From positions 124,001 through 188,000 of the forward strand of contig JADFAE010000007.1 of assembly GCA_015665415.1 (NCBI GenBank): 64,000 bases of DNA, in the 5' to 3' direction. This DNA is from Roseobacter sp. (lineage in GTDB: Bacteria > Pseudomonadota > Alphaproteobacteria > Rhodobacterales > Rhodobacteraceae). Positions 1-54,327 of this stretch are shown here, piece after piece. The notes below the pieces were generated by a model, which saw only the letters and a program-made list of their open reading frames with translations, was not told the DNA's origin and searched no databases. The stretch's first letter is position 1. Each line of letters begins with the position of its first letter. Position numbers and translations under genes: made by a program.

Positions 1-1066
1 GTTTCGCATCCACTGCCGCGCCACTCAGCTCGATGCGCCGGGCATCGGGCTGAAACCCCAGCCGCAGACCGGCGGCGATCTGGCTGCTGATCCGCTCCTG
101 CGGGGCCGTCTCAGCAGCAGGCTGGCGGATTTGCGGCGCAATCTCTGCGCCAGATTCCTCAGGAGGTTGTGGCTCTAAACGTGCCTTTAGAGCCTGTTCA
201 TTCTGCAGATCTTCCAGCGCCGCAGTCAACACCGCCAGTTCCTCAACTGCCGTGGGGCGCGCGGCTAACTGCAGCGCCGCTTTTAGGCGGGGCGCAAACT
301 CCGCATCCTCGCCCATCTGGCGCACCAGGGCCAGGCCCAGCTTCTCGCTGATCGCGGCGGGAAAATACAGCACCGCGTCCAGCGCCTCGACCAGGGTGAC
401 AAAACTGCCGATCTTGGAGCGCTTGGCCCGTGGTGCATTGGCAAACAGCCCCTGCAGCGCTTTCTTCTGGGTTGGGAACACCCCCTCCTTGAGCGCGCGC
501 ACCGCAATGCGGGCGCGTTCATAATGGGATAGATTGACCCGGATTTCATTCTCTTCGACCATGGCCACATAGGCCGCCTCGGCGCTGTCAGGGCGGATCA
601 CCAGCGCCTTGATCTGGGAGAATTCAGGCTCTGAATTCTCAGCATAGAGTCTGCGCAGCGCGCTCAGCCGGCGCCAGCCCGAAATCAGCCCCCAGGATTT
701 TCCGTCACGCCGCCCGCTCAGGGGCACCACTTCGATCGGGGTCTGCTGGCCGCGGGCGCGCAGGGATGCCATCAGCGCTGCCATTTCCTCTTCGTCCTGA
801 CTGATCCGGTCGCGCACCAGATGGGTCTCATCGATCGCCTCCAATGCGATCTCTTCCACCATCAACCCCTTGGCACGGGCATTGCTCAGCACATCCGACA
901 ATTCCTGCAGGGCGGCTTGGCTTGCGGCCTCGGAAGCTACCTGAGCAATGGGGGCGGGGGCAGCAGCGCTGGGGCTGGCCAGGGCCGGTCCCAGCGCCGA
1001 TTTGCCCTCAGGCGCGCCGGAAAGATAGCTGTTCTGTGCCGGGGTAAGCCGCTTGCGTTTTGCCAT
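1..1066 (-). CDS. parB: ParB-type partition protein (3' end outside window)
   Basis: Reading leftward from the ATG at 1064-1066 gives an open frame that runs off the window edge (about 355 codons seen). The protein starts MAKRKRLTPAQN, and a basic, low-complexity N-terminus precedes a ParB nuclease-like domain at about residues 75-140. The segment GLISGWRRLSAL (about 127-138) matches the arginine-rich box of ParB proteins. It would bind a centromere (parS) and work with the ParA ATPase in segregating the replicon. It lies 73 bp downstream of parA on the same strand, so the two probably form one operon. The C-terminus is not visible, so the dimerisation domain cannot be judged. Confidence 0.88.
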   Translation of the reverse strand, partial: MAKRKRLTPAQNSYLSGAPEGKSALGPALASPSAAAPAPIAQVASEAASQAALQELSDVLSNARAKGLMVEEIALEAIDETHLVRDRISQDEEEMAALMASLRARGQQTPIEVVPLSGRRDGKSWGLISGWRRLSALRRLYAENSEPEFSQIKALVIRPDSAEAAYVAMVEENEIRVNLSHYERARIAVRALKEGVFPTQKKALQGLFANAPRAKRSKIGSFVTLVEALDAVLYFPAAISEKLGLALVRQMGEDAEFAPRLKAALQLAARPTAVEELAVLTAALEDLQNEQALKARLEPQPPEESGAEIAPQIRQPAAETAPQERISSQIAAGLRLGFQPDARRIELSGAAVDAK

Positions 1067-1139
1067 CTGCCTTGTCTCCTCCTCATGCGATCCCGGGGGC
1101 ATTTGCGCCGCACCCTGGGCTTTCTACCTTGTTAGAGCC

Positions 1140-2570
1140 TTAAGCGCCCGCACGCGCGCTTTGCGCTTTACCCTGATCTTCAGCCTGTGCTTCCAGCTCT
1201 GCCCGCCGCCAGACCCCCAGCAAAAGCCGCTTGAAGGCCGCATAGGTGGCGTCAAATGTTTCACGCCCACGGGCGTAGGTCTCGCGGTTGAAATCGCGGT
1301 AATCGGCCTCATAGATGCCGCTGACCTGCTCCCCCGCCTGGCCGATCAGGGCGGTGAAGTCCTGTTTATGCGGAGAGAGCACCGGGCCCATATAGGCCTG
1401 CATCAACCCGGCCAGCTCGCCCTGCTGGGCGCTGTCATAGCGGGTGATCACCGCGCGCACTGCATCCCATTCAAAACCCATCTCTGGCCGCCCCAGCGCG
1501 CGTGCGGCCAGGTTCTCGCCGTCTTCAATGGAGGCAAAGGTCGAATGCAGCATGTCAAAGAACCGACCGGTGCTGTCGAACTCCAGAAAAGACGCCCCCA
1601 TCGGCACCAGCAGGATATCCGAAGCCGCCAGCCCGTTGATGGTGAGATAGCCCAGGGCGGGCGGGGTATCGATAAAGATCACATCATAGTCATCCAGCAC
1701 CCCATCCGCCTCCAGCCGGTCGGTGAGCGCATCCCACAGTTTCCAGCTGCGCGCGGCCATGCGCCAGACCGGGATCTGGAACTCGGCCCAGTACAAATTC
1801 AGCTGGGCGCCAATCAGATCGATATTGGGCCAATGGGTGCCCTGAATGACATCCCCAGCGGTCATCTCCATGGCAGTGCTCAGCGAGTCTTCCAGCGGCT
1901 GCGGGGCCTCACCACGCTCCAGTCGGCGCTGGTTGTCTGCGCGCAAATGCTCGCCGTAATGGCGCGCCAGCAGCGGAAAGGCGGTCTGCCATTCATCCTC
2001 GACACGGCCACCAAAGATCGAGGTCATCGAGCCCTGGCTGTCGAGATCGATCACCAGCACCTTGTAGCCATCCAGTGCCGCCGACATCGCCAGATGGGCG
2101 GCGGTGGAGGTCTTGCCAACACCACCTTTGAAATTGGCCACCGAGACCAGTTTGGCCGGCAGGCCCTTGGGGCGATAGGGGGTGTAATCCTTTGCCTTGG
2201 ATCCCTGGGCACCAAAATGCGCCCGCAGCATCAGCACCTCATCCAGGGTGAACCATTTGGCCCCCCCCTCGGTTTCTGAGCGCCCCTGGGGCAAGTCCGG
2301 GTTGGCCTTGAGCACGCGGCGGAAATGGGCCTGGGCAACAGGGATCAGATAGCGGGTGATTTCCCAGGTGGAAAACAGGCGCAGCTCTTTGCGTCCCTCT
2401 TCGTTCATGCCCCGGCTGGAGAGATCCGCACGACCCCGGGCGCAGCCCTCGGCGATATCGGCAAAGCCTGCGGTATTGGTTGGATTATCCAGCTCTGCCA
2501 GGGCCGCATCGGGATCAATGTTGAAATAGGGCGGCAGAGCGGCGCCTGCTTTGTGGATATCTCGTGCCAT
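1140..2570 (-). CDS. parA: ParA-family partition ATPase
   Basis: A 476-aa Walker-type partition ATPase. The deviant Walker A motif KGGVGKT is at about residues 148-154, followed by a VLVIDLDSQGS motif and an IFIDTPPALG switch region. The roughly 140-residue N-terminal extension ahead of the ATPase core is typical of plasmid ParA proteins that autoregulate by DNA binding. I chose the ATG at 2568-2570 (MARDIHK). The open frame extends to 2696, but those residues look non-coding. It sits upstream of parB on the same strand and faces away from repA, with the presumed origin between them. Confidence 0.93.
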   Translation of the reverse strand: MARDIHKAGAALPPYFNIDPDAALAELDNPTNTAGFADIAEGCARGRADLSSRGMNEEGRKELRLFSTWEITRYLIPVAQAHFRRVLKANPDLPQGRSETEGGAKWFTLDEVLMLRAHFGAQGSKAKDYTPYRPKGLPAKLVSVANFKGGVGKTSTAAHLAMSAALDGYKVLVIDLDSQGSMTSIFGGRVEDEWQTAFPLLARHYGEHLRADNQRRLERGEAPQPLEDSLSTAMEMTAGDVIQGTHWPNIDLIGAQLNLYWAEFQIPVWRMAARSWKLWDALTDRLEADGVLDDYDVIFIDTPPALGYLTINGLAASDILLVPMGASFLEFDSTGRFFDMLHSTFASIEDGENLAARALGRPEMGFEWDAVRAVITRYDSAQQGELAGLMQAYMGPVLSPHKQDFTALIGQAGEQVSGIYEADYRDFNRETYARGRETFDATYAAFKRLLLGVWRRAELEAQAEDQGKAQSARAGA

Positions 2571-2890
2571 GAGCTGTTGTCTGCCCTCGATCTGCGGCTG
2601 TTGCGCCGCTGTGCCTCTTGCTTTGGAGCCTTTGCCGGATCCAAAATTCCCGGCGAATGTATCGCCTTTATGAGCTGATATCAGAAAAGGCAGCACATGG
2701 GAAGAATATGCACATCCCTTTTTCTTTTTCTAAGCAATTCAGGGCTTTGCAACAGGGGAAAGGGGTGGATTTTGGGGCTTCCAAAATTATCTACCCTGTT
2801 ATTTATGAGTTATATTATAGTTATAGGCAGGCAGGCTCTTGCGCAAAGCCCTTTTTTTATTGGCGTTGAGCTTGGTTTTTGAAGCGGAAG

Positions 2891-2956
2891 TGACTCTGAA
2901 ACCCCGTTGAGATGACTCCAAACCCCCGAAGCAGTGACTCTGGAACCCCGTTGCGG
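2891..2956 (+). repeat. Three 22-bp direct repeats (iteron candidates)
   Basis: Units begin at 2891, 2913 and 2935 with exact 22-bp periodicity. The first starts TGACTCTGAAACCCCGTTG, the third differs from it at one base over 19, and the middle copy is degenerate (TGACTCCAAACCCCCGAAG). A spacing of two helical turns between initiator and DnaA box is the usual layout of RepA-binding iterons. They lie about 150 bp before repA. Confidence 0.72.
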
Positions 2957-2961
2957 GGTCA

Positions 2962-2970
2962 TGTGGATAA
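2962..2970 (-). promoter_or_regulatory. Perfect DnaA box
   Basis: The minus strand reads TTATCCACA, the consensus DnaA-binding 9-mer, directly beside the iteron-like repeats. Plasmid origins often recruit host DnaA in this way. Confidence 0.65.
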
Positions 2971-3102
2971 CTCTAGGGTGGGCGTAATCAAAACCACGAA
3001 AAACGAGTCACCCCTCGGTTCTGTAAAATGCGCGCCACAGAGTGAATGAGCGCCATCAAACTGGGGAGAGGGTGAGCGAACAGGCAGAGCGGGCAGGCAG
3101 CG

Positions 3103-4128
3103 ATGAGTGCAATTGCATCAGGGGGAGTATATCCACCCGAGGGGCAGGCGGATTTTTTCCTCTGCGATATTTTTGATGCCATTCCCAAGAATGATCTGGC
3201 GTCGATGGAGCATCCGCTGTTTTCATTGGCGACGCGCCCCGATCGACGGATCCTGAACTATCAGCACAATGGCGCCGAGATCACCGTGGTGCCCAGCGTC
3301 AAGGGTTTGGCGACAATCCACGACAAGGATATCCTGATCTTTTGCATCAGCCAGTTGATGGCGGCGCTGAATGCGGGCCGTCAGGTCAGCCGCACTCTGC
3401 ACCTGAAGGCGCATGATCTGCTGATTGCCACCAACCGCGAGACCTCTGGCGATGCCTATCGCCGGTTGCGTGAAAGCTTTGAACGCTTGGCCGGCACCCG
3501 TATCACCACCAATATCACCACCGGTGGCGAAGAGGTGACCAGCGGCTTTGGCTTGATCGAGAAATGGGAGATCGTGCGCAAGGCCCCCAGTTCCAAAAAG
3601 GGGCCGGGCCGCATGGTCAATGTGGCGGTGACGCTGTCGGACTGGCTGTTTCGCGCGGTGCTGTCGAAATCGGTGCTGACCCTCAGCCGTGATTATTTCC
3701 GTCTGCGCAAGCCGCTGGAGCGGCGCATCTATGAGCTCAGCCGCAAGCACTGCGGCCGCCAGGCGAGCTGGACCATTTCGGTAGAGACCTTGCTGAAAAA
3801 GTCGGGCTCTGCCAGTCCGCGCCGGGTGTTTCGCAAGATGCTGCGTGACATGATCGATGCCCAGCCGCTGCCGGATTACGCCATGGAGGAGCTGCCGGGG
3901 GATCTGATCCGGTTCAGCCAGAAACATGCACTGGTGGAACCGGGGGCCGGTGATGCGCCGGTGCTGAAGCCGGCCAGCCTGGAGCGTGCCCGCACATTGA
4001 TGCCGGGGGCGGATGTCTATGCGCTGGAGGCCGAATGGCGCGCTATGTGGGCGCGTTCTGGCCGGCCCCGGTTGCGCCAGGCCGATGCCGCCTTTCTGGG
4101 CTGGGTCAAAAAACGCAGCGCGGAGTAA
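3103..4128 (+). CDS. repA: Plasmid replication initiator RepA (RPA family)
   Basis: A 341-aa protein resembling the alphaproteobacterial 'replication initiator protein A' family used by RepA-type roseobacter plasmids. Recognisable stretches include a winged-helix-like region around TLHLKAHDLLIATNRE and the conserved block LRKPLERRIYELSRKHCG near residue 215. It would bind the repeats at 2891-2956 and start replication. It is divergent from parA across the origin region. The ATG at 3103 has only a weak purine stretch upstream, and an internal start near 3205 (MEHPLFSL) is possible. It is not RepC of repABC plasmids, and no repB/repC is present. Confidence 0.88.
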   Translation: MSAIASGGVYPPEGQADFFLCDIFDAIPKNDLASMEHPLFSLATRPDRRILNYQHNGAEITVVPSVKGLATIHDKDILIFCISQLMAALNAGRQVSRTLHLKAHDLLIATNRETSGDAYRRLRESFERLAGTRITTNITTGGEEVTSGFGLIEKWEIVRKAPSSKKGPGRMVNVAVTLSDWLFRAVLSKSVLTLSRDYFRLRKPLERRIYELSRKHCGRQASWTISVETLLKKSGSASPRRVFRKMLRDMIDAQPLPDYAMEELPGDLIRFSQKHALVEPGAGDAPVLKPASLERARTLMPGADVYALEAEWRAMWARSGRPRLRQADAAFLGWVKKRSAE

Positions 4129-4148
4129 AAAAGAGGGGGCTTTGCCCC
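4127..4148 (-). terminator. Rho-independent terminator for the GT4 gene
   Basis: On the minus strand a GGGGC/GCCCC stem with a 3-nt loop (4136-4148) is followed by a run of six T (complement of 4127-4132). It overlaps the end of repA and would stop transcripts arriving from the glycosyltransferase gene. Confidence 0.55.
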
Positions 4149-4205
4149 GTTCGACCCTCAAAGCGCCCAGAGGACGCTTTGCCGCCGCTGGCGGGCCGGG
4201 TCTCA

Positions 4206-4230
4206 CCCCCCAGGATATTTTTGGCCAAAT
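4206..4230 (+). repeat. Dispersed intergenic repeat, copy A
   Basis: CCCAGGATATTTTTGGCCAA followed by ATGAAG. It belongs to a family seen also at 4255-4290, 7404-7440 and 9195-9225. All copies are in gaps around the glycosyltransferase and rml genes. The shared pattern is a GC-rich block, then a TATTTT core, then AAATGAAG/A. Confidence 0.5.
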
Positions 4231-4254
4231 GAAGCCGGGCGGGTGCTGGCCATC

Positions 4255-4290
4255 TGTTTTCATTTTGCCCAAAATACCTCCGCCGGAGGC
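4255..4290 (-). repeat. Dispersed intergenic repeat, copy B
   Basis: On the minus strand this reads CCTCCGGCGGAGGTATTTTG then GGCAAAATGAAAACAG. It is nearly identical to the copy between rmlB and rmlD at 7404-7440. Its first ten bases form a perfect small inverted repeat (CCTCC/GGAGG). Confidence 0.6.
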
Positions 4291-4295
4291 TGTTA

Positions 4296-4317
4296 AATGT
4301 TTCGCGTGCGAAACATT
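4296..4317. promoter_or_regulatory. 22-bp parS-like palindrome
   Basis: AATGTTTCGC-GT-GCGAAACATT has perfect 10-bp arms with a 2-bp centre. It closely resembles the bacterial parS palindrome (TGTTTCACGTGAAACA) with the centre expanded. It lies in the gap after repA, within 3.3 kb of parAB, and has no T-run, so it is more likely a ParB-binding centromere site than a terminator. I saw no second copy in the window. Confidence 0.62.
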
Positions 4318-4321
4318 GACT

Positions 4322-5566
4322 CTAAATCGTGATCCGCTTGGCCGCGGGCACCAGGGCATTGATCTGGGCGATATGCTCTGGCAGGCAGCGGCTGAGGAAA
4401 TCGTAATTTTCCAGCACATGGGCGCGGGCAGCGGGGCCGAGATGCGCATAGGCGCCGGGATTGTCCAGCACATCCGTGACCTGATCCGCCAGGGCCGTGG
4501 GATCGAAGAAATCCACCAGCATGCCGGTCGCACCATGTCTCACCGCCTCGCGCACGGGGGCCACATTGGCAGCCACCACCGTGGCCTGCATCGACATCGC
4601 CTCAAGCAAGGACCAGCTGAGCACAAAGGGCATGGTCAGATAGATGTGGCAGCGGCTGATGCGGATGATGCGGCAGAGGTCGTCATAAGGCACCTTGCCG
4701 AGGAAATGCACCCGGCTCCAATCGACCTGATCGCCCAGTTCCGCCTCCATCTTGCCGCGCAGCCCCTTGGGGTGGCTGCTTTCGCTGCCGTAGGAGGTCT
4801 CGTTGCCGCCGATCATCAGCACCCGGGCCTTGGGGCGTTTGGCCTGGATCTGGGGCAGGGCGCGCATCATGATGTGAAAGCCGCGGGCCCGCTCCATGTT
4901 GCGGGCAACATAGGTCACCACCTCATCGTCGCGGGTCAGGGGGCGTGACAATCGCCCCAGGCCAACCGAGGCCGCTGGATCCGCCTGCAACCGGTCGCAG
5001 CGAATGCCGTCATGGCAGGTATACATGCGGTCATGAAAGGAGGTCGGGAAGCGGTCGCGCTGCCAATAGGTGGGGGTATGGCCCTGATCCACCACCTCGA
5101 TGCTGGCATAGGGCACGCTGTTGCGGGCCTGGGCAAAGAAACCGGCCTGATCATTGGGCGGGGCGTCAGGATCAAAACCGACCAGCCCACCGGAGGTGCG
5201 GTAGAAATACTCAAAGAAGCCAATCACCGGCACATCCGGCCAGATCTCCTTCATGAACAACAGCTCTCCCCAGCCGGTATGGCCGATGATGATATCGGGC
5301 TTGAATCCTTGGTCGCGCTGCAGTTGGCGCGCGGCAAGGGCGGCACCAAGGCCGGCACCGGCGGCCGCCTCCCAATCCTTGGACAGCCCATAGGCCTCCT
5401 TGCCGGGCTGATGATGCGGCTGGTAAGTGACGGTTGTGACCCCGTCGATCCGCAGCCCCTTGCGCTGGGTCAGAAAAACGATCTCATGGCCGCCCTGCTG
5501 GACCAGCCAGCTCAGCAGTTCGCGGTATTGGCCGGGCATGTTTTGATGCACAAAGAGAAATTTCAT
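4322..5566 (-). CDS. GT4-family glycosyltransferase
   Basis: A 414-aa cytoplasmic glycosyltransferase of the GT-B fold. The N-terminal domain opens with MKFLFVHQNMPGQYRELLSW, typical of nucleotide-sugar-dependent GT4 enzymes that build exopolysaccharide. The C-terminal half shows the donor-binding region (MPFVLSWSLLEAMSMQ, with an E in an E-x7-E-like arrangement) and a PVREAVRHGATGMLVD loop. I chose the ATG at 5564-5566. The frame extends 52 codons upstream without family similarity. It is divergent from rmlC, so rhamnose transfer is plausible, but the donor and acceptor cannot be read from sequence. Confidence 0.85.
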   Translation of the reverse strand: MKFLFVHQNMPGQYRELLSWLVQQGGHEIVFLTQRKGLRIDGVTTVTYQPHHQPGKEAYGLSKDWEAAAGAGLGAALAARQLQRDQGFKPDIIIGHTGWGELLFMKEIWPDVPVIGFFEYFYRTSGGLVGFDPDAPPNDQAGFFAQARNSVPYASIEVVDQGHTPTYWQRDRFPTSFHDRMYTCHDGIRCDRLQADPAASVGLGRLSRPLTRDDEVVTYVARNMERARGFHIMMRALPQIQAKRPKARVLMIGGNETSYGSESSHPKGLRGKMEAELGDQVDWSRVHFLGKVPYDDLCRIIRISRCHIYLTMPFVLSWSLLEAMSMQATVVAANVAPVREAVRHGATGMLVDFFDPTALADQVTDVLDNPGAYAHLGPAARAHVLENYDFLSRCLPEHIAQINALVPAAKRITI

Positions 5567-5773
5567 GACGACAGGGCTTTCAGGGCAATATGGGACAGAG
5601 AATTCTTGGCTCCATGCTTGCCGGGGAATGCTGCGGGGTGCAAGCAACCCGGTGGGGCGGAGTTGCGACATCTCCCCGGCCTGGCAAAAGCCGCCGCTGC
5701 TGCGGGTTTGACCATGGCGCAATGGCGCGGCAATGGGTAGGACTGAGGGGGCAGGCAGGTGACAGGATGACAG

Positions 5774-6334
5774 ATGCAGATTGAAGAGACAGGATTACCG
5801 GGGCTGAAGCTGCTGGTGCCGCAGCGTTTTGGCGATGCGCGTGGATTTTTCAGCGAGAGCTGGAACCGGCAACGGCTGCTGGATCACGGCATTGATCTGG
5901 ATTTTGTGCAGGACAATCATTCGCTCTCGATGCAAGAGGGCACCCTGCGCGGGCTGCATTTCCAATCCCCGCCCCATGCCCAGGACAAGCTGGTGCGCTG
6001 TGGCCGGGGCGCCTTGTTTGATGTGGCGGTGGATATTCGCGCAGGCTCGCCCTCTTATGGCAAATGGTTCGGGGTGGAGCTGACGGCTGAGAATGGCAGG
6101 CAGCTTTTGGTGCCTGCGGGGTTCCTGCATGGCTTTATCACCCGCGCGCCCGAGACTGAGATCATCTATAAATGCACCGACTATTATGCGCCCGACTGCG
6201 ATGGCGCGGTGGCCTGGGACAGCTGCGGCATTGAGTGGGGGTTCGACGGCCCCCCGGTGCTGAGCGATAAGGATGCCGCAGCGCTGTCGCTGGCGGAATT
6301 CAACAGCCCCTTTGTATTTGAGGATCCGGCATGA
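5774..6334 (+). CDS. rmlC: dTDP-4-dehydrorhamnose 3,5-epimerase
   Basis: A 186-aa cupin-fold epimerase, third step of dTDP-L-rhamnose synthesis. Family landmarks are QDNHS at 46-50, RGLHFQ with the catalytic His62, Lys72 and PAGFLHGF with His119, and the tyrosine near 132. First gene of rmlC-rmlB-rmlD-rmlA. The stop overlaps the rmlB start by 4 bases (ATGA). A second ATG at 5767 is out of frame. Confidence 0.96.
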
Positions 6335-7383
6335 AGATTCTGGTGACCGGTGGTGCGGGCTTTATCGGTTCGGCGGTGGTGCGGCTGGCCATCGGGCGCG
6401 GGTATGAGGTGGTCAATCTGGATGCGCTGACCTATGCCGCCTGTCTGGACAATGTGGCCGAGGTTGCGGGCTGTGATCGCTACGCCTTTGAGCAGGCGGA
6501 TATCCGCGACCGCGCCGCGCTGGATCGGGTCTTTGCCGTGCATGCTCCGGATGCGGTGATGCACCTGGCCGCCGAAAGCCATGTGGACCGCTCCATCGAC
6601 GGGCCCGGGGATTTCATCGAGACCAATATCAGTGGCACCTTCAACATGCTTGAGGCGGCGCGCAAATACTGGCTTGAGGCCGGTCGCCCCGAGGGCTTTC
6701 GCTTCCATCATATCTCGACCGATGAGGTCTATGGCAGCCTGCCCGATGACCCGGAGGTCTTGTTCACCGAAGAGACCGGGTATGATCCGCGCTCGCCCTA
6801 TTCCGCTTCCAAGGCCGCCTCTGACCATCTGGTGCGCGCCTGGGGCGAGACCTATGGGCTGCCGGTGCTCTTGACCAATTGCTCCAACAATTACGGGCCC
6901 TTCCATTTCCCGGAAAAACTGATCCCGGTGGTGATCCTCAATGCGCTGGCGGGCAAACCGCTGCCGATTTATGGCGATGGCTCCAATGTGCGCGACTGGC
7001 TCTATGTGGAGGACCACGCCGATGCCTTGCTGGTGGTGCTGGCCAAGGGCGCGGTTGGGCGGTGCTATAATATCGGCGGCGAGAATGAGCGCTCGAACCT
7101 GGAGTTGGTGAAGACACTTTGCGCTATTCTGGATGAAAAGCGCCCGCGTGCAGATGGGGTGTCCTATCAGAACCAGATCAGCTTTGTGACGGATCGCCCC
7201 GGCCATGATGCCCGCTATGCCATCGACCCCTCCCGTATCCGGAATGAACTGGACTGGCGTCCCAGCGTTACCGTCGAGGAGGGGCTGGCGCGCACGGTGC
7301 AATGGTATCTCGACCATGAGCCCTGGTGGCGCGCCTTGCAAAATCGTGACGGCGTGGGCCAGCGGCTGGGGCGGGGGACATAG
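6331..7383 (+). CDS. rmlB: dTDP-glucose 4,6-dehydratase
   Basis: A 350-aa extended short-chain dehydrogenase, second step of dTDP-L-rhamnose synthesis. The NAD-binding GGAGFIG is at 7-13, the catalytic TDE triad at 130-132 and YSASK at 157-161. Length and motifs are those of a complete RmlB. Translationally coupled to rmlC by a 4-base overlap. Confidence 0.97.
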
Positions 7384-7384
7384 G

Positions 7385-7404
7385 GGCTTTCCACTTGGAA
7401 AGCC
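7385..7404. repeat. Perfect 8-bp hairpin between rmlB and rmlD
   Basis: GGCTTTCC-ACTT-GGAAAGCC directly after the rmlB stop. It has no T-run, so it may stabilise the upstream mRNA or attenuate transcription rather than terminate it. The dispersed repeat (copy C) starts immediately after. Confidence 0.5.
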
Positions 7405-7440
7405 TGCCTCCGGCGGAGGTATTTGGGGAAAAGTGAAAAC
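7404..7440 (+). repeat. Dispersed intergenic repeat, copy C
   Basis: CCTCCGGCGGAGGTATTTGG then GGAAAAGTGAAAACAG, the same orientation-independent element as at 4255-4290, here inside the rml operon in front of rmlD. Confidence 0.6.
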
Positions 7441-7452
7441 AGGGCGCAGAAC

Positions 7453-8304
7453 ATGAGCATTCTGGTATTTGGCAAGACCGGTCAGTTGGCGCGGGAGCTG
7501 GCGTTGCAGGAGGGGGTTACCTGTCTGGGGCGCGATCAGGCGGATCTGTCGGATCCGGCTGCCTGCGCCGAGGCCATCCGGCAGGCGCGACCGCAGGCCG
7601 TGATTAATGCCGCAGCCTACACGGCCGTGGACAAGGCGGAGCAGGAAGAAGCACAGGCAAGTCGCATCAATGGCGCCGCCCCCGGTGCCATGGCACGCGC
7701 CTGCGCCGATCTGGGTATTCCCCTGGTGCAGGTCTCCACCGATTATGTCTTTGACGGCAGCGGCGAGACCGCCTGGCAGCCGGAGGATACAACGGCACCC
7801 ATCAATGCCTATGGCCGCAGCAAGCTGACCGGCGAAGAGGCGGTGCGGGCGGCGGGCGGCACATATGCGATCCTGCGCACCTCCTGGGTGGTCTCTGCCC
7901 ATGGCAATAATTTTGTGAAAACCATGCGGCGCTTGGGTGCTGAACGGGATCGCTTGACCATTGTGGCGGATCAGATCGGCGCGCCGACCTCGGCGCGCGA
8001 TCTTGCGCTGGCCTGCCTTGAGATGGCGCGCCAGCTGATTGCGGACCCCAAAAAAGCGGGGACCTATCATCTGCAGGGCACCCCCTGGGTGAGCTGGGCA
8101 GGCTTTGCGGCGGAGATCTTTGCGCAAAGCAAGATCGCCTGCGCGGTGGCAGAAATCCCTTCCCGCAATTATCCCACCCCGGCGGCGCGGCCATTGAACT
8201 CAAGGCTGGATTGCACCTTGTTAGAGACTGTTTTTGGAATTGCACAGCCAGATTGGCGCTGCGGCTTAGCTGAGATTTTGCAGGATTTGGAGGCCATATC
8301 ATGA
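7453..8304 (+). CDS. rmlD: dTDP-4-dehydrorhamnose reductase
   Basis: A 283-aa short-chain dehydrogenase, last step of dTDP-L-rhamnose synthesis. The N-terminal nucleotide-binding loop is GKTGQLA (7-13), in which the last glycine of GxxGxxG is alanine, as in many alphaproteobacterial RmlD. STDYVFDG is at 95-102 and the catalytic Y120-x3-K124 follows. Start chosen at the ATG at 7453. The frame opens 30 bases earlier inside the dispersed repeat. It overlaps rmlA by 4 bases. Confidence 0.96.
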
Positions 8305-9173
8305 GCATTAGAAAGGGCATCATTCTGGCGGGGGGCTCCGGCACCCGGCTCTATCCCATCACCATGGGCGTCTCCAAGCAGCTCCTGCCGATCTATGACA
8401 AGCCGATGATCTATTATCCGCTGTCTGTCTTGATGCTGGCGGGCATCCGCGAGATCTGCCTGATTACCACGCCACAGGACCAGGCGCAGTTTCAGCGCAC
8501 CCTGGGCGATGGCAGCCAATGGGGGGTTTCGCTCTCTTATGTGGTGCAGCCTTCGCCCGACGGGCTGGCCCAGGCCTTTATCCTGGCCGAAGAGTTTCTG
8601 GCGGGCGCCCCTTCGGCGCTGGTGCTGGGGGACAATATCTTCTTTGGCCATGGCTTGCCAAAACTGCTGGCCGCGGCGGATGCCCAAGACAGTGGCGGCA
8701 CCGTCTTTGGCTATCACGTGGCCGACCCTGAACGCTATGGGGTGGTGGATTTCGACGCGGCGGGCCGGGCCCGCCAGATCATCGAGAAACCCAGCGTGCC
8801 GCCCTCGAACTATGCGGTGACCGGGCTCTACTTCCTTGATGGCACCGCGCCCCAGCGTGCCCGCCAGGTGCAGCCCAGCCCCCGGGGCGAGTTGGAGATC
8901 ACCGATCTGCTGCAGATGTATCTCGACGAGGAGAGCCTGCAGGTCGAGACCATGGGTCGCGGCTATGCCTGGCTCGACACCGGCACCCATGGATCGCTTC
9001 TGGAGGCGGGCAATTTTGTCCGTACCCTGCAGGATCGTCAGGGGCTGCAGACCGGCTGCCCCGAAGAGATCGCCTATGAGGCGGGCTGGATCAGCGATGC
9101 GGCCCTGCGCACCCGCGCCCAGCTCTTTGCCAAGAACGACTATGGCCGCTATCTGGAACGGCTGCTGGGTTAG
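8301..9173 (+). CDS. rmlA: Glucose-1-phosphate thymidylyltransferase
   Basis: A 290-aa nucleotidyltransferase making dTDP-glucose from dTTP and glucose-1-phosphate, the first and feedback-controlled rhamnose step. The signature [11 protein letters not shown] is at 9-19, followed by SKQLLP (Lys26) and GDNIFFG (Asp111). Full length for the family. Last gene of the rml operon. Confidence 0.97.
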
Positions 9174-9194
9174 ACCGCGTATCGCGGTGGGATC

Positions 9195-9225
9195 TGTCTT
9201 CATTTGGCTGAAAATATCCCGGGGG
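9195..9225 (-). repeat. Dispersed intergenic repeat, copy D
   Basis: On the minus strand this reads CCCCCGGGATATTTTCAGCC then AAATGAAGA. It lies just downstream of rmlA, so copies A-D bracket and interrupt the rhamnose block. The remaining gap to gspD (9226-9459) holds no gene; a GGGGGC-AGG-GCCCCC hairpin is present. Confidence 0.5.
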
Positions 9226-9459
9226 AACGGGCCGCAGGTCCGTGGGGGCAGGGCCCCCTGAACTTTGCCGTCTCAAGCCTGGAGGAGGCTTTTGGCGCTC
9301 CGGCCACAGGTCCCGCCAGATATGGGAGTAGCGGGGCGAGAAAGCCGTGGGTTTTGATGGCAAATCCGCTATGGTGCCCAGCAAAGATCAAATGAGCAGC
9401 GGGCGGCAGATTCTATCGCGGATCTGAGGCCTGTCACGCAGGGACATAAAGAGCAGCCC

Positions 9460-11469
9460 ATGAACAAACGCGCAGTGAAACATGCGGTGGCCTTCAGCCT
9501 GGGCCCCAGCGGCCTGACCGGGTGGATCTCAGGTCTCAGAGCGGCGTTGGGGGCTGGCCTCTTGGCCCTGACCCTGTTGCTGGCCCCGCCGCTGCGGGCC
9601 CAGGTGACCCTAGATCTGCGCGACGCCGACCTGCGCAGTTTTGTCGAAATCGTCTCCGAGGCCACCGGGCGCAGCTTTGTGCTCGATCCCGGCGTGCGCG
9701 GCACGGTGACGGTGCTGGCCCCCGATCAGATGTCGCCACAGGATCTGTTCGAAGTCTTCCTGTCGGTGCTGGAGTTGAACCGGCTGACCCTGATCACCGG
9801 CGCCGGGGCCGATCGCATCGTGCCGATGAATGTCGCGCGCGAGCTGTCCTCGGGGGGCAGTGCGGGTCTGCCCAGCGGCTTTGAGACCCGGGTGATCCCG
9901 GTGCGCGAGGTGCCGCTGCAGGAGGTGATCGAAGTGGTACGCCCGCTGCTGCCCGCCGAGGCGGTGATGACACCGGTGCCGGGGGCCAAACGGCTGATCA
10001 TCTCGGACCGGGCCGCTAATCTGAACCGGATCGCCAAGCTGATCGCGCGACTGGACCAGCCCCGTGCCGCGCCACCAATCGAGATCATCCGGCTGCAGAA
10101 TGCCAATGCCGGCGAGGTGCTTCAGGTGGTGCAATCGATGGACCTGATCCCCGAGGGCTCTTCGGTCACGGTGGACCGGCGCTCGAACGCCTTGCTGATT
10201 TCCGGCTCCGAGGCGCTGCGCCACCGGGTGCGTCTTTTGGTGGATGAACTGGACACCCAGCGCGACACCGTGGTCTCGCGTACGGTGCCTCTGAACTATG
10301 CCGATGCGGCCTCGATTGCCGATGTGGTGATGCGCACCCTCAACACCGATGATGGCAATACGGCGCGCGCGCCGGTGCGCATCGTGCCGGAGCTGCAGAC
10401 CAATACCCTGCTGATCTCCGCCCCGCAGGAGCGCATTGCCGAGATCGTGCAGATGGTGCGCTATCTGGACCAACGTCCAACCCAGGTGCTGGTCGAGGCG
10501 GTGATTTTTGAAATGTCGGTCGAGGGGCTGTCGGATCTGTCGGTGCAGTTTGGCGCGGTGCTGAACAATGCCCTGGTGGGCGGGGCCCAGTTCGATCTGC
10601 CGGGACGCAGCAGCCTGACCAATCTGATTTCCTCGGTCTCCAATGGCACCACCCCGGCGCTGGGGGCGGGGGGTGTCTTTGGCGGCGCGGCGCGCAATGC
10701 CAGTGGCGATGGCATCGTCGGGCTGATCACCGCCATTGCCTCGGTCAATTCCACCCGGCTGTTGTCGACGCCCTCGATCCTGACCCTCAACAATCAGGAA
10801 GCAGAGATCGTGGTGGCGCAGAATGTGCCCTTTGTCACCGGCAGCTATTCCACCGTCAGCGATGGCAGCTCTGTCGACAATCCGTTCCAGACCATCGAGC
10901 GCCAGGACGTCGGGCTGACGCTGAATGTGACGCCGCAGATCAATGCCGATCGCACCGTGCGCATGCTGATCAAGCAGGAGGTCTCCAACCTCACCAATAC
11001 CACCGCCTCCTCGGGCGGGGAGATCACCTCGCGGCGTTCGCTTTCGACCACGGCGCTGGTGCGCGATGGCAATGTGATCATGCTGGGCGGGCTCTTGGAA
11101 AATGGCTCTGGCGGGGTCAGCCAGAAGGTGCCCGGCCTGGCCGAGCTGCCGCTGGTGGGCGGGCTGTTTCGCGGCAAGAATGCCAGCAGCAGTCAGCGGG
11201 TGCTTCTGGTGATGCTGCGCCCGCAGGTGGTCTCTACCGAGGCCGAGGCGCAGCGCATCAGCCGCGAGCTGTCGCGCAAGGCCCGCGACATCAGCGCTGC
11301 CATCACCCCGGTGGATGACGGCCGCTTTCCGCATAATCAGCTGGGCGGGCTGCCCTTTGACGGCGCCGATCTGAACCAGCCCTTTGATGCCGGTTTCATC
11401 GATGATGTGGCGCAGCGCCGCAACTTCCCGCCCTTGCCCAGCAGGCTCCGGTTTGGCAGTGGCAACTAA
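9460..11469 (+). CDS. gspD: Type II secretion secretin GspD
   Basis: A 669-aa outer-membrane secretin. A signal sequence (to about residue 48) is followed by the N0 domain (LDLRDADLRSFVEIV...) and N1-N3 repeats up to about residue 340. The C-terminal secretin domain carries the conserved segments LLSTPSILTLNNQEAEI, VGLTLNVTPQI and VPGLAELPLVGGLFR. It forms the outer-membrane channel of the T2SS. First of gspD-gspE-gspF; its last codons overlap the gspE start. Confidence 0.95.
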   Translation: MNKRAVKHAVAFSLGPSGLTGWISGLRAALGAGLLALTLLLAPPLRAQVTLDLRDADLRSFVEIVSEATGRSFVLDPGVRGTVTVLAPDQMSPQDLFEVFLSVLELNRLTLITGAGADRIVPMNVARELSSGGSAGLPSGFETRVIPVREVPLQEVIEVVRPLLPAEAVMTPVPGAKRLIISDRAANLNRIAKLIARLDQPRAAPPIEIIRLQNANAGEVLQVVQSMDLIPEGSSVTVDRRSNALLISGSEALRHRVRLLVDELDTQRDTVVSRTVPLNYADAASIADVVMRTLNTDDGNTARAPVRIVPELQTNTLLISAPQERIAEIVQMVRYLDQRPTQVLVEAVIFEMSVEGLSDLSVQFGAVLNNALVGGAQFDLPGRSSLTNLISSVSNGTTPALGAGGVFGGAARNASGDGIVGLITAIASVNSTRLLSTPSILTLNNQEAEIVVAQNVPFVTGSYSTVSDGSSVDNPFQTIERQDVGLTLNVTPQINADRTVRMLIKQEVSNLTNTTASSGGEITSRRSLSTTALVRDGNVIMLGGLLENGSGGVSQKVPGLAELPLVGGLFRGKNASSSQRVLLVMLRPQVVSTEAEAQRISRELSRKARDISAAITPVDDGRFPHNQLGGLPFDGADLNQPFDAGFIDDVAQRRNFPPLPSRLRFGSGN

Positions 11470-14136: not shown

Positions 14137-14140
14137 CCCC

Positions 14141-14611
14141 TTAGTTCTCGGCAAAGCCCAAAAGCTCTGGCGCATCGCCCTGACGCGAGACCCACAGCCC
14201 CTCGGCATCGATGCGCACCACAGTGACATCCTCGCGTAGGGAATCGCCGCGGCGGACCAGCTGCTCACCACTGGGATGATCGACAATGGCCCAGGTGGCC
14301 TGCCCCGCCTGCACCCGGCCTTTCAGCACATAGCCAAGCGAGTCCAGCGGTGGTTTTGGCGCCCGCGGGGGCTGCGGTTCCGGCGTCACCGGGGCGGCGG
14401 CGGGTCTGGGCGGCTGTTTCTCCCCAAAAAGTGCGGGCCAGTGCCTGCGCGCCCGCTGCGGCGCTGGCGGTGCGCTGCCCGCCGCCAGCGTTGGCAACTC
14501 CTGGCGCTGCTGCTCCGGCGGCGGCGCGGCCAGTACCTGCCACAGCTGATGCCCGGCAAGGCTGGCCAGGGCCAGACAGCCAAGGGTCGAGAGGGCAGCG
14601 ATCAGGCGCAT
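14141..14611 (-). CDS. gspC: Type II secretion inner-membrane protein GspC
   Basis: A 156-aa protein with an N-terminal membrane anchor (3-25), a proline-rich linker and a homology-region domain (about 92-150) around LGYVLKGRVQ...WAIVDHPSGEQLVRRGD. These are the features by which GspC contacts the GspD N0 domain. It lacks a C-terminal PDZ or coiled-coil domain. The ATG at 14609-14611 has a strong AAGGAG. A longer frame to 15109 is an artefact. It lies alone on the minus strand, convergent with gspF. Confidence 0.8.
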   Translation of the reverse strand: MRLIAALSTLGCLALASLAGHQLWQVLAAPPPEQQRQELPTLAAGSAPPAPQRARRHWPALFGEKQPPRPAAAPVTPEPQPPRAPKPPLDSLGYVLKGRVQAGQATWAIVDHPSGEQLVRRGDSLREDVTVVRIDAEGLWVSRQGDAPELLGFAEN

Positions 14612-41418: not shown

Positions 41419-41516
41419 GGCTCCTGCAGGTTCTGGCCCTGAAATTCCCCTTGAACCAGCCAGACCCCTGCGCAAAGAGGGGGCTGTTCATTTGATTTTT
41501 TCCAAAGGTTTTTCAT

Positions 41517-49422: not shown

Positions 49423-49887
49423 TCAGGCGGCTTGAACCGGCTGCACTTCGGTCAGGATCGTGAACAGGGTGGCAGGATCATGATTGGCGCGCAGCTTTGT
49501 GCAAAAACTCTGTTCGCGCAGCGTGCGCGAGACCAGGGCCAAGGCTTTCAAATGTTCAACACCTGCGTCTTCGGGTGCAAACAGCGAAAACACGATATCC
49601 ACGGGCTGTCGATCCACGGAGTCGAAATCAAGGGGTTTTTCAAGGATGATAAAGGCGCTGCAGACCTCATGCAGCCCATCCAGACGTGCATGCGGCAGGG
49701 CAACGCCATGGCCAACCCCGGTGGGGCCAAGGCTCTCCCGATCCAGAAGAGCCTCGACCGTGGATTGGGCTGAGAGGCCATAGGCCCCAGAGGCCACCTC
49801 GGCAATTTCCTGAAACAGGCGCTTTTTGCTGGATACGGCACCGATAACCCGGACGGCGTCCGGTTTAAGGAGGCTTGAAATCTGCAT
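49423..49887 (-). CDS. ptsN: PTS IIA-like nitrogen regulatory protein
   Basis: A 154-aa EIIA-Ntr protein. The phosphorylated His66 lies in GVALPHARLDG, and the HLKALALVSRTLR segment is typical. It relays PTS-Ntr phosphorylation to metabolic and potassium regulation. The ATG at 49885-49887 has GGAGCAGGTG upstream; a GTG two codons earlier is less likely. Downstream of hpf, as in most proteobacteria. Confidence 0.95.
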   Translation of the reverse strand: MQISSLLKPDAVRVIGAVSSKKRLFQEIAEVASGAYGLSAQSTVEALLDRESLGPTGVGHGVALPHARLDGLHEVCSAFIILEKPLDFDSVDRQPVDIVFSLFAPEDAGVEHLKALALVSRTLREQSFCTKLRANHDPATLFTILTEVQPVQAA

Positions 49888-49932
49888 AGTCACCTGCTCC
49901 GTTCAGATGCCGTGGTGCGCCTGTTCTAAGGC

Positions 49933-50502
49933 TTATACTTTTGGGTCGATCCAGCCAATGTTGCCATCTTCCCGGCGGTATACCACGTTCACCCCGTTCT
50001 TGTTCTCATTGCGGAAAACCAGCACCGGGGCGCCAGCCAATTCCATCTGCATCACTGCTTCACCTACCGAGAGGGACGGAATGCGGGTTTCCATCTCTGC
50101 CACGATGATCGGCTGCAGTGTTTCGGGCTCGTCTCCGCTCCCGGCTGCATCAGAAGCGAGGATATAAGAGCTGCCGTCGAGAATTTCAACCGGTTCGCTG
50201 CGATCCCGGTGGTGATCTTTCAGCCGACGCTTGTAGCGGCGCAGCTGTTTTTCCATCTTTTCGCAGCAGTCTTCAAAAGCCGAATAGATTTCAGTGGCAT
50301 GTGCCTTGGCCTGGGCGGTAAGCCCGGTGGACAGATGCACGGTGGCTTCGCAAACATATTCATGCGCAGACCGGGAAAAGACGACATTCGCGTCGGTCGG
50401 GCGTTCTGCATATTTCGCGACGACAGTCCCCAGCTCGGTCTGAACATGGGTCTGCAATGCTTCGCCAATGTCGATCTGTTTACCGCTGATTTTGTAACGC
50501 AT
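49933..50502 (-). CDS. hpf: Long-form ribosome hibernation promoting factor
   Basis: A 189-aa protein with the N-terminal ribosome-binding domain (MRYKISGKQIDIGEAL...) and the C-terminal dimerisation domain (EAVMQMELAGAPVLVFRNEN) that mark long HPF, which forms 100S ribosomes. The ATG at 50500-50502 has a strong GAAGGAG. The frame extends 12 codons upstream without similarity. Confidence 0.95.
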   Translation of the reverse strand: MRYKISGKQIDIGEALQTHVQTELGTVVAKYAERPTDANVVFSRSAHEYVCEATVHLSTGLTAQAKAHATEIYSAFEDCCEKMEKQLRRYKRRLKDHHRDRSEPVEILDGSSYILASDAAGSGDEPETLQPIIVAEMETRIPSLSVGEAVMQMELAGAPVLVFRNENKNGVNVVYRREDGNIGWIDPKV

Positions 50503-50825
50503 GTGATCTCCTTCACAAATTTCCACCCAAAACACCACCCGGGCCGGGCCCGGAGGGTTGTCGTCAGTTCTGGGTCAGGGGATGTGGCAGGGCAGTGGGT
50601 TGCAGACCTTCGGGTCTTGTTGCCAAGACCTCGCTTCGGACTACCTCGAACTGCACGTTTGCCATAGGTCAATTCGATGCCAAACCAGCGGTAGAGTCAA
50701 TGGCGATACCTCAAATTGATGAGAGGAAAACCTGTCAGCCGGCGGAATTCAGCACGGATAAAGATGCCTCCTTGATAGAGGTATCACAGTTGTCAGGCGT
50801 GAATTTTGGAAATCAATTCTGCAGT
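50503..50825. other. Gap between lptB and hpf; no rpoN
   Basis: A 323-bp region without a gene at the place where many proteobacteria carry rpoN. A short hairpin with a TTCG tetraloop (AGACC-TTCG-GGTCT) lies near 50604-50617 and may end the lptB transcript or lie in the hpf leader. Confidence 0.4.
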
Positions 50826-51587
50826 TTAAGAGATTCGAAAATTGTCGCCCAGATAGACGCGACGGACGTTTTCGTTCTCCACCACCTCGGCAGGGCTGCC
50901 CGACATCAACACCTGACCATCGTGCAGAATATAGGCGCGATCCACGATCTCAAGAGTCTCGCGGACGTTGTGATCGGTGATCAGTACACCGATGCCACGC
51001 TTTTTCAGATCGGCCACCAGATGGCGGATATCGCCAACCGATATCGGGTCAACCCCGGCAAAGGGTTCGTCCAGCAGAAGATATTTGGGGTCAGCCGCCA
51101 GGCAACGGGCGATCTCCACCCGGCGGCGCTCACCGCCTGACAACGCCAGTGCCGGAGCGCGGCGCAGGTGTTCGATGGAAAAGTCCGACAGCAGCTCTTC
51201 CAGCCGCTCGCGGCGTTTGTGATCGTGTTTTACCGCAATATCGAGGACGGCCATGATATTGTCTTCGACCGAGAGGCCGCGAAAAATCGACATCTCCTGC
51301 GGCAGGTAGCCGATCCCCAGCCGGGCGCGGCGATACATCGGCAGGTTGGTGACGTTCTGACCATCAATGGTCACGGTGCCGGCTTCGGGAAAGATCAGCC
51401 CGGCAATGGCGTAAAAACTGGTGGTCTTGCCGGACCCGTTGGGCCCGAGCAGAGCAACCACCTCGCCGCGGTCCAGTGACATCGACACGTCACGGATCAC
51501 CACTTTTTTGCGGTAGCTTTTGCGCAGTCTTTCGATGCGCAGGCCCGAGGTGCCTTCGGTCAGCTTGAGATCAGGTTTCTGCGCCAT
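50826..51587 (-). CDS. lptB: LPS transport ABC ATPase
   Basis: A 253-aa ABC ATPase with Walker [10 protein letters not shown] (about 48-56), signature [13 protein letters not shown] and Walker [13 protein letters not shown]. It energises extraction of LPS from the inner membrane with LptFG. ATG at 51585-51587 overlaps the lptA stop (TGATG). Confidence 0.96.
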
Positions 51588-52105
51588 CAATTGCCATCGC
51601 CCGAATTGGAGCTGGGGTTCAGAATTGTCTTTACCCGACCTGCCATGCTTGCGGTTCCGGTGGTCAAGTTGACCACCATACGCTGCGAGGTAAGGCTGCC
51701 AGCGTTCTGATTCAAGAGGACATTCCCGCTCAATACGATGGTGCCCTGATCGATTGTATACTCGGCACGCTGGGCTTCGGCGGCATCCGCTCCGCTGACC
51801 AGCAGCACATTGCCAATGGCCTCCAGCCGTTCGATGCCACGTTTGCCCGCATCATCGGTCTTGTAGATCACCAGAACCCGGTCGGCTGACAGGCGCATCA
51901 CCCCTTGGATGATCAGCACATCGCCGGTGAACTCAGCGGAGCCGTCCACCTGATTGACCGCCAGGGCATCAGAGGTGACCTCGACCGGTTGCGAGGGATC
52001 TGCCTTGACCGAGCCAAAGGCAACGGCGGCATTCTGCGCCAGCACAGGTGCGGTGAGCCAAAGGGAGGCCATCAGGCTAATCAACAGGGCACGCAAATGA
52101 GTCAC
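51587..52105 (-). CDS. lptA: LPS transport periplasmic protein
   Basis: A 172-aa OstA/LptA-fold protein with a signal peptide (cleavage after PVLA-QN) and the jelly-roll pattern [22 protein letters not shown]. It forms the periplasmic bridge for LPS. Start is GTG at 52103-52105. Between lptC and lptB in one operon. Confidence 0.93.
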
Positions 52106-52108
52106 AGT

Positions 52109-52705
52109 CTATCTATCCAATTTTTGGGGATCGTATACCAGCTTGACCCTGTTGGTGAAGAGAAGATGCACTGGCCCACCAACAGTTTGTGAGGTGATTT
52201 CCATATGGCCGGCGGTCAATTTGCCCAAATCACCCGTTGCAGTGACGGCACCGGGGCTTTCTGCCTGCACCGCAGAGAGCTGGGTCTTCAGGGCTTCGGT
52301 CTCAATTACCAGTCCGTCGGCGCTGGTGATTTCCACATTACCGACAAAGCGGGCCAGGTCCTGATCCGGATGTAGCGTGCCGCGGTCCGAGCGCAGCGTC
52401 AGCCGACCACCGGCCACCATGCGGATCTCTGCTTCAAGGTCACTGGCGATCACGGGCGTATCAGAGCTGGCCCGGGCCACTGTGGCGGTGACCCAGATTT
52501 CATCCCCGTCGGAGGTCGAGCCGGAGAAGAAGGGGCCGGTCACTTGCTGACCCTGCATGCGTTCTTCGATTTCGCGGTCGGCAAAGGGGATAACCGCTTC
52601 GGTGTCTGCATTGCGCGAGATCAGGAACAGGGTCGACAGCAATCCCAGGGCTGCCAACGGCAGCAGCACCTTGAGATAATTGACCATACGGGAATAGGGA
52701 TCCAT
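52109..52705 (-). CDS. lptC: LPS export protein LptC
   Basis: A 198-aa bitopic protein with one N-terminal helix (about 11-30) and a periplasmic LptC-type beta-jelly roll (MQGQQVTGPFFSGSTSDG, LTLRSDRGTLHPDQ). It hands LPS from LptBFG to LptA. Position before lptA supports the call. Confidence 0.9.
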   Translation of the reverse strand: MDPYSRMVNYLKVLLPLAALGLLSTLFLISRNADTEAVIPFADREIEERMQGQQVTGPFFSGSTSDGDEIWVTATVARASSDTPVIASDLEAEIRMVAGGRLTLRSDRGTLHPDQDLARFVGNVEITSADGLVIETEALKTQLSAVQAESPGAVTATGDLGKLTAGHMEITSQTVGGPVHLLFTNRVKLVYDPQKLDR

Positions 52706-52723
52706 GACCTGGCTGCCTTGTGC

Positions 52724-53692
52724 TTATCCGAGGCCTGCGCGCAGGCAATCGTGAATATGCAAGAGCCCCTCGGCGCGATGGCCCTTGGCGGGATCCACCA
52801 CAAACAGACAGGTGATCTTGCGCTGGTTCATGATCGCCACTGCTTCTTCGGCCAGCGCGTCAGGGGCGATGGTTGTTGGGTCCTTGGTCATCACCGCTTC
52901 GGCGCTGTTTTGCAGCAACCCCTCCATGTGGCGGCGCAAATCCCCATCGGTGATGATGCCCAGCAGAGTGCCGTCGGCATCGGTCACACCAGAGACGCCA
53001 AAGCCTTTTTGGCTGATCTCAATGAGGGCTTCGGACATTGGGGTGTCTTTGTTGACCAGCGGCAGGGCCGTGTCGCCATGCATCAAATCGCGCACCCGGC
53101 TGAGCTGGGCCCCCAGTTTGCCACCCGGGTGAAAGTCGCGAAAGTTTTCGGGGCGGAAGTCGCGGTATTTCATGATAGCGATGGCCAGGGCATCGCCCAT
53201 GGCCAGAGTCAGGGTTGTCGAATTCGAGGGCACAATGCCATAGCCGCAGGCCTCGCCCATGGCTGGGATCTGCAGCTGCACATCTGCCTGGGTCATCAGG
53301 GTGCTTTCGGGCTTGCTCGAAAGCCCGATCAGCGGAATGTCAAAGCGGCGGGTAAAGGCCAGCAGATTTGCCAATTCCGGCGCTTCGCCCGAGTTGGAGA
53401 TCGCCAGAACCACATCGCCCTTGGACAGCATGCCCAGGTCGCCATGGCTGGCCTCGGCCGGGTGCACAAAATAGGCGGGGGTGCCGGTGCTGGCCAGGGT
53501 GGCGGCAATCTTGTGGCCGATATGGCCAGATTTGCCGATGCCGCTGATGATGATCCGCCCGGTGGCCGCCAGGATCATGCGGGCGGCTTGGGCAAAGCGT
53601 TCGTCAAAGCTTTCGGCCAGGGCGTCTAGCGCTCGGGCCTCGTCTGTGGCCACCTGACGCGCGGTGGCGAGGAATTTTTCAGTATCGGTCAT
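52724..53692 (-). CDS. kdsD: Arabinose-5-phosphate isomerase
   Basis: A 322-aa KpsF/GutQ-family enzyme. The SIS domain (IISGIGKSGHIGHKIAATL; HPAEASHGDLGML) is followed by two CBS domains (VRDLMHG...; MTKDPTTIAPDALAEEAV). It converts ribulose-5-P to arabinose-5-P for Kdo synthesis, consistent with the adjoining LPS export genes. Overlaps rnd by 4 bases. Confidence 0.94.
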   Translation of the reverse strand: MTDTEKFLATARQVATDEARALDALAESFDERFAQAARMILAATGRIIISGIGKSGHIGHKIAATLASTGTPAYFVHPAEASHGDLGMLSKGDVVLAISNSGEAPELANLLAFTRRFDIPLIGLSSKPESTLMTQADVQLQIPAMGEACGYGIVPSNSTTLTLAMGDALAIAIMKYRDFRPENFRDFHPGGKLGAQLSRVRDLMHGDTALPLVNKDTPMSEALIEISQKGFGVSGVTDADGTLLGIITDGDLRRHMEGLLQNSAEAVMTKDPTTIAPDALAEEAVAIMNQRKITCLFVVDPAKGHRAEGLLHIHDCLRAGLG

Positions 53693-54327
53693 GAGTGTGC
53701 AAAAATATCCGTTTCGGGCCAGCCAGCCAGGTCCAGTCTGGCACGCATTGGCAGAAAGTCAAAACAGGCCTGGGCCATTTCGGTGCGGCCTTCGCGTTCC
53801 AGCCTTTTGTTCAAGGCCTCGCGGAGGCGGTGCAGGTACAGAACATCCGAGGCGGCATAGTCCAGCTGCGCAGGGGTCAGAATCTTGGCCCCCCAATCGC
53901 TCATCTGCTGCTGTTTGGAGATGTCGACGCCGATCAGCTCTTGGGTGAGGTTCCTGAGACCGTGTCGGTCGGTGTAGGTGCGCACCAGGCGGCTGGCGAT
54001 CTTGGTGCAGTAGACCGGGGTCGTCAGGGCACCAAAGGCGTTATACATGGCAGCAATGTCAAAGCGGCCATAGTGAAACAGCTTCAGGGTGTCAGGATCT
54101 TCCAGCAAGGCGCAGAGATTGGGGGCCTCGGTTTGGCCTTTGGCGATCTGCACAATATGGGCATTGCCATCGCCATCAGACAGTTGCACCACGCAGAGCC
54201 GATCGCGATGCGGGTTCAACCCCATGGTCTCGCAATCGATCGCAACGGTGGGGCCCAGTTGCAGGCCATCCGGCAGGTCGCCTTGGTAGAGGTGGTTGGC
54301 CAATTCACGCGTTCCTTTGATTTCCAA
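53689..54327 (-). CDS. rnd: Ribonuclease D-like 3'-5' exonuclease
   Basis: A 212-aa DEDDy exonuclease. Asp31 and Glu33 lie in AIDCETMGL, HYGRFDIAAMYN is the second motif and DYAASDVLYLHRL the third. It is the short alphaproteobacterial form without the HRDC domains of E. coli RNase D. The start appears to be TTG at 54325-54327; no in-frame ATG lies nearby. Confidence 0.9.
   Translation of the reverse strand: MEIKGTRELANHLYQGDLPDGLQLGPTVAIDCETMGLNPHRDRLCVVQLSDGDGNAHIVQIAKGQTEAPNLCALLEDPDTLKLFHYGRFDIAAMYNAFGALTTPVYCTKIASRLVRTYTDRHGLRNLTQELIGVDISKQQQMSDWGAKILTPAQLDYAASDVLYLHRLREALNKRLEREGRTEMAQACFDFLPMRARLDLAGWPETDIFAHS

Follow-up and report, generated by a model that had tools for sequence, protein, structure and literature searches.

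Do a plasmid replication module and a set of essential housekeeping genes lie on one molecule in this Roseobacter sp. genome, or has the assembly brought two molecules together? The window, the whole stretch of 64,000 nucleotides that was analyzed, is C2:124001-188000, C2 being a contig of 400,792 bases in a draft of 4,474,503 bases in 40 contigs; this genome is labelled G000 among those compared. A first-pass annotation had proposed three ways in which a RepA replicon with rhamnose and secretion genes could have come to stand beside the essential block: integration into the chromosome, capture of the block to give a chromid, or misassembly. We searched 60 genomes, including the genome itself and 11 others of the same genus. 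The apparent fusion of plasmid and essential genes is very probably a repeat-induced misjoin of two separate molecules.

Plasmid and chromosomal parts of the window

The left part of the window (1..42388) is plasmid sequence comprising the end of parB, parA, iterons, repA, the rml operon, type II secretion genes, polysaccharide genes and galU up to a break point. As the first-pass annotation had it, repA and parA stand at the left of the window: the replication initiator RepA (3103..4128, plus strand) matched PF10134 with an E value of 1.1e-98, and a ParA-type partition ATPase (1140..2696, minus strand), an open frame whose start is approximate, matched PF13614 with an E value of 3.8e-29. The iterons that it had noted can be recognized as three iteron-like direct repeats with a spacing of 22 nt (2889..2953, plus strand). 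Its parB corresponds to a ParB-like partition protein (1..1102, minus strand), which starts left of the window edge and is cut there. This protein had no Pfam match at E 0.001 and matched NCBIfam partition_RepB, TIGR03454, under the cut-off (E 4.2e-18), and the plasmid homologues inspected, 8 of the 664 records matched, are annotated as ParB N-terminal domain proteins. The rhamnose and secretion cargo was likewise correctly named: rmlC, rmlB, rmlD and rmlA form a dTDP-rhamnose operon at 5774..9173, and genes for the type II secretion secretin, ATPase and F protein follow 3' of it at 9460..14136, both on the plus strand. The plasmid part also contains two 411-base direct repeats, at 35068-35478 and 36759-37169, which are 92% alike.

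Rhamnose-operon plasmids mediate a switch between motile and sessile states, and the operon is carried on a native 65-kb plasmid, as stated in the relevant passages of two reports (PMC9426580, PMC11481893). RepA, parAB and an rml operon, the combination that characterizes such biofilm plasmids, are all present here, with ParB below the curated cut-off. The plasmid described here differs from the roseobacter biofilm plasmids in that it is larger (95 kb) and carries type II secretion genes and galU. It is partly collinear with CP104103.1, a complete circular plasmid of 131,482 bases from Phaeobacter sp. G2, with 81.8% identity over 66% of window positions 1-20000; parB, parA, repA, a glycosyltransferase, rfbC-B-D-A, gspD, the ATPase and the F protein occur in the same order in both. 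However, G006:C4, the presumed counterpart of CP104103.1, is without galU at the corresponding site. Among the matches listed, P. inhibens plasmids of 65-70 kb are 81-82% identical to window positions 321-5566 (partition genes, repA and glycosyltransferase), a likeness that consists of DNA similarity alone, and in Leisingera plasmids the match extends through the rml genes.

On the right side of the window, galE (42483..43466, plus strand; TIGR01179, E 6e-123) is the first gene that is entirely chromosomal, and it is contiguous with galU in relatives. The ptsN, hpf, lptB, lptA, lptC, kdsD and rnd genes form a native chromosomal block at 49423..54327 on the minus strand, where the first-pass annotation had placed them. 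Hpf and LptB scored over the NCBIfam cut-offs of their own names and KdsD over that of the broader KpsF/GutQ family; PtsN, LptA and LptC fell narrowly under their cut-offs, and Rnd (E 3e-29) far under. When plasmid records were searched with window positions 41001-64000, the best place covered 3-5% of the query among the best 20 of 88 records, and these matches were mostly insertion-sequence stretches and one galU. On the chromosomal side, insertion sequences matching IS5-family and IS1380-family transposases lie at 54830-55683 and 61709-62943, and the G+C content drops to 45-50% between 56000 and 62000, where a hybrid histidine kinase and a CHASE3 protein are encoded.

The first-pass annotation had suggested looking for a second lptBAC or kdsD copy and for dnaA on the same molecule. 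The lpt block is present in full only once in the genome. The dnaA gene is found on another contig, C5, which ends at the other side of galU, and not on C2. A search for the 16S gene gave no match in this genome, a result to which we attach no weight because 6 of the 40 contigs consist wholly of N; the same search matched 9 of 14 control genomes.

The plasmid is repeated on the contig

A profile search matched RepA at two places on C2 with equal score, the copy outside the window lying at C2:32002-32700. Self-comparison of the contig revealed that C2:1514-71203 recurs as C2:96700-166388, and that window positions 1..42388 are the second, identical occurrence of C2:28816-71203. The two copies differ by three mismatches and one gap (blastn), confined to the first ~50 and the very last bases, and the ~69.6 kb between these edge differences is letter-identical in both. 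The repeat period is ~95.2 kb, corresponding to a lap of 95,186 bases (C2:1514-96699). Judged from its sequence, C2 reads as one whole plasmid lap, ~70 kb of a second lap, and then chromosome, with 1.7 laps in total. Because the identical 69.6 kb is used twice in the contig, the copy number of the plasmid is not readable from C2.

Over its entire circumference, the first lap is collinear with G008:C4, a 92,209-base contig from a relative in the same genus. Of the 95,186 bases in the lap, 78,218 align, and the shared order runs on from one end of G008:C4 into the other. Subtraction of coordinates places galU ~37.6 kb from the RepA match in the plasmid described here and ~38.0 kb from it in G008:C4.

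Two different left flanks enter the duplicated stretch, C2:1-1513 and C2:95778-96699. Because of these two flanks, we conclude that the sample probably held more than one version of the plasmid, either as mixed plasmids or as an integrated together with a free copy. Over their left 300 bases, the two left-flank alleles are ~94% alike. One has a 296-aa open frame and the other a short frame of 86 aa, and by eye both are sulfotransferase-like, with no Pfam match. When the alleles were compared with G008:C4 and with stretches of G006:C4 and of contigs C19 and C30 of G009, just ~110 bases matched, in the second allele only.

The join lies inside galU

The two laps part at C2:71204 and C2:166389, and the break point between plasmid and chromosome is located at window positions 42388..42389. 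Beyond the break, lap one runs on into one GalU C-terminus and then polysaccharide genes, arranged as in G008:C4, and lap two into a different GalU C-terminus and then galE; both versions read as GalU C-termini. The galU gene of the window (41517..42431, plus strand; TIGR01099, E 2e-94, narrowly under the cut-off) is a hybrid, the body of which is that of the first plasmid lap and the last 43 bases of which are chromosomal.

Contig C5 ends at its base 279065 with the start of chromosomal galU and 115 bases identical to window positions 41538-41652, and a search of the genome itself found no additional copy of this galU. The chromosomal and plasmid galU genes seem to have been collapsed into one 851-base stretch, R, at window positions 41538-42388 on the plus strand. 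This stretch would be common to both genes: its first 115 bases are present in their chromosomal context on C5, and the middle of the chromosomal copy is presumed to be the same. The break falls at the edge of the sequence shared by both molecules, with the sharing in between presumably unbroken.

This position is within the interval of 41.4-49.4 kb to which the first-pass annotation had assigned the joint. The claim that both gene sets are on one molecule was not confirmed, given that the plasmid part occurs twice on the contig and that the join is in galU sequence common to both.

Relatives keep the two gene sets on separate contigs

Nine of the 11 same-genus relatives have the sequence at the end of C5, galU and galE in one uninterrupted stretch, and the other two, G003 and G009, have a break in galU. 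The lpt block is on the galE contig in all seven relatives tested, 5.6-5.9 kb past galE, compared with 5.96 kb in the window. The gene-free segment 48902-49422, which the first-pass annotation had named as another possible place for the joint, lies within this conserved galE-to-ptsN spacing and was rejected.

RepA is present in 9 of the 11 relatives (it is absent from G002 and G003), and in all nine it is on a contig other than that of chromosomal galU. In the comparison of gene order that the first-pass annotation had recommended, galU, galE and lpt share one contig in 7/7 relatives tested, and RepA stands apart from chromosomal galU in 9/9 that have it. A separate contig is weak evidence in a fragmented draft, which several of these nine genomes are, so the comparison depends mainly on G006 (7 contigs) and G008 (6 contigs). 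Integration at galU was seen in none of the 11 relatives of the genus that were searched; an unjoined arrangement in relatives is the one expected if the window is misassembled.

In three relatives (G008, G006 and G002), the contig with chromosomal galU also carries C2:384001-389000, a segment close to the right end of C2. In G008 this segment has the same orientation and lies ~295 kb past galE, compared with 218 kb in C2; in G006 and G002 it is inverted with respect to galU, and the long-range order is not kept.

The two relatives with a break in galU are of different kinds. G003 is an 86%-complete draft of ~240 contigs in which RepA was not found. Its break is unexplained by a plasmid copy, and since it occurs where RepA was not found, breaks at this gene can have other causes. 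In G009, galU is where four contigs of that draft end (C2, C19, C3 and C30), two coming from each side of the gene, with exactly 55 bases common on each side. This genome looks like a natural control in which the same repeat was left unjoined, apparently at k = 55.

Contig ends and the limits of the assembly

Contig ends were surveyed in 34 contigs (68 ends), the six contigs that are wholly N being left out. Twenty of the 21 exact contig-end overlaps are 127 bases long and one is 95 bases long, and 28 of the 68 ends, including the start of C2 and the end of C5, are without an exact terminal overlap. A de Bruijn graph with k = 127 characteristically leaves overlaps of 127 bases, and because of them the assembly was read as the product of such a graph. 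Misjoins between replicons through repeat collapse are a known kind of error in de Bruijn assemblies. The present case resembles them in the position of the join, at the border of a gene that both molecules have, in the k-long contig overlaps (20/21), and in the exact large duplication (69.6 kb, letter-identical, in a short-read graph assembly). It differs from them in that the contig walks 1.7 laps before its exit. The overlap of C5 is 115 bases, not 127, and neither the C5 end nor the C2 start is a clean graph node, which counts against a misjoin. We infer that the 115-base overlap marks a coverage gap at k = 127.

Two models were built from real sequence, a chromosome with a separate circle and a chromosome with the circle integrated at galU, the unseen middle of chromosomal galU being set equal to that of the plasmid. 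The separate and integrated models yielded the same multisets of pieces at lengths of 128, 300, 600 and 850, and differed at 860, 900 and 1000; the threshold length that distinguishes them, determined from counts, is 853. Since the pieces are the same below 853, shorter reads cannot separate the two arrangements, and since the k-mers are identical, the assembly itself does not prove the separate arrangement either.

Two molecules, an integrated plasmid or a chromid

The misjoin would have arisen as follows. The cell, presumably sharing the arrangement of its relatives, would contain two molecules: a circular plasmid of ~95.2 kb that carries RepA and a galU gene of its own, and a chromosome with the order ...-galU-galE-...-ptsN-lpt-kdsD-rnd. 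The two galU copies of one genome would be held near-identical by gene conversion, presumably in this genome as well. A de Bruijn assembly with k = 127 would then have fused the two copies into one repeat, provided that their middle parts are identical. The contig would have gone once round the plasmid, met the repeat again and exited to the chromosome, in keeping with the general behavior of graph assemblers on leaving a loop, and C5, the other chromosomal side, would have halted at the entry of the repeat.

Among the options of the first-pass annotation, misassembly is best supported, integration is highly unlikely, and chromid capture is contradicted. In the integration model, plasmid and chromosomal galU would have recombined in a single crossover, and the inserted plasmid would be flanked by galU on both sides. 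A crossover could readily happen between galU copies as alike as those of G008, and the integrated arrangement has the same 128-mer multiset as separate molecules, and the same multisets at 300, 600 and 850, on the assumption of an equal galU middle. However, it predicts one plasmid copy, and C2 has 1.7; the second junction, from the C5 end into C2:71204, was not assembled, just one junction being present; and RepA is on a separate contig in 9/9 relatives that have it. The two alternative left flanks, with their different open frames, could also mean that integrated and free copies coexist, or that two slightly different plasmids are integrated in tandem in galU, so that the 1.7 laps would be partly real. 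This is very improbable: letter-identity over ~69.6 kb is expected of one graph path used twice, mixed plasmid versions account for both flanks without integration, and no such state is seen in any of the nine relatives with RepA. One form of this coexistence, to which we give just as slight a chance, is that galU homology, refreshed by gene conversion, serves as a standing crossover site at which the RepA plasmid moves in and out, the sample having held both states; on this view, the two plasmid versions as well as the 1.7 laps would be explained. Integration in any form, single as well as mixed or tandem, is on the whole unlikely. If the integrated state were true, the locus would be a clean system for reversible replicon fusion.

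Capture of the lpt block by the replicon to give a chromid has next to no probability and was rejected on synteny. Adjacency on the contig speaks for it; against it are the single full lpt copy in the genome, the galU-galE-...-lpt order in 7/7 relatives tested, where lpt is chromosomal, and, in G008, G006 and G002, the occurrence of C2:384001-389000 on the contig that carries chromosomal galU. Reading the window as a misjoin of two molecules takes away what is probably a spurious example of a plasmid bound to essential genes, and supplies the exact place and likely cause of the join.

A galU gene shared between plasmid and chromosome

In G008, the chromosomal galU and that of the RepA contig (G008:C4:18485-19388), which are on separate contigs, are 99.56% identical over 904 bases. 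By comparison, galU of G008 and G000 are identical at 747 of 849 positions (~12% different). The two G008 copies group as sisters (99/98 support) in a tree built from 12 galU sequences. The two galU 3' ends of G009 are alike at 146 of 155 bases and then diverge; compared with G000, they match at 124 and 126 of 149 bases. We read these data as indicating that the plasmid acquired galU in an ancestor and that gene conversion with the host chromosome followed; repeated recapture of galU at one site could also explain them, though less simply than one capture followed by conversion. For G000 itself, the direct support for this reading comes from the first 115 bases only. Among plasmid records, galU genes are 60-80% identical in the best 40 of 155, which is of no help in placing this copy. 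In the literature, surveyed at the level of titles and abstract openings, no homogenization of galU between replicons is described; we do not claim that it is unpublished.

A chromosomal housekeeping gene that was copied to a plasmid and homogenized with the plasmid copy is found in at least one other genome of the genus, G008. G009, the draft of which has its break at galU, shows it in part, and such a gene may mislead the reading of other drafts. That the plasmid galU is near-identical to the chromosomal galU of the same genome, over its full length in G008 and in the parts seen in G009 and G000, has the appearance of concerted evolution. No galU occurs at the plasmid site in the plasmid-type stretches of G001, G005, G006, G010 and G011. 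In G007:C29, at ~7.0-7.4 kb of the reverse complement, a galU remnant with its middle missing stands where G000 and G008 have the whole gene.
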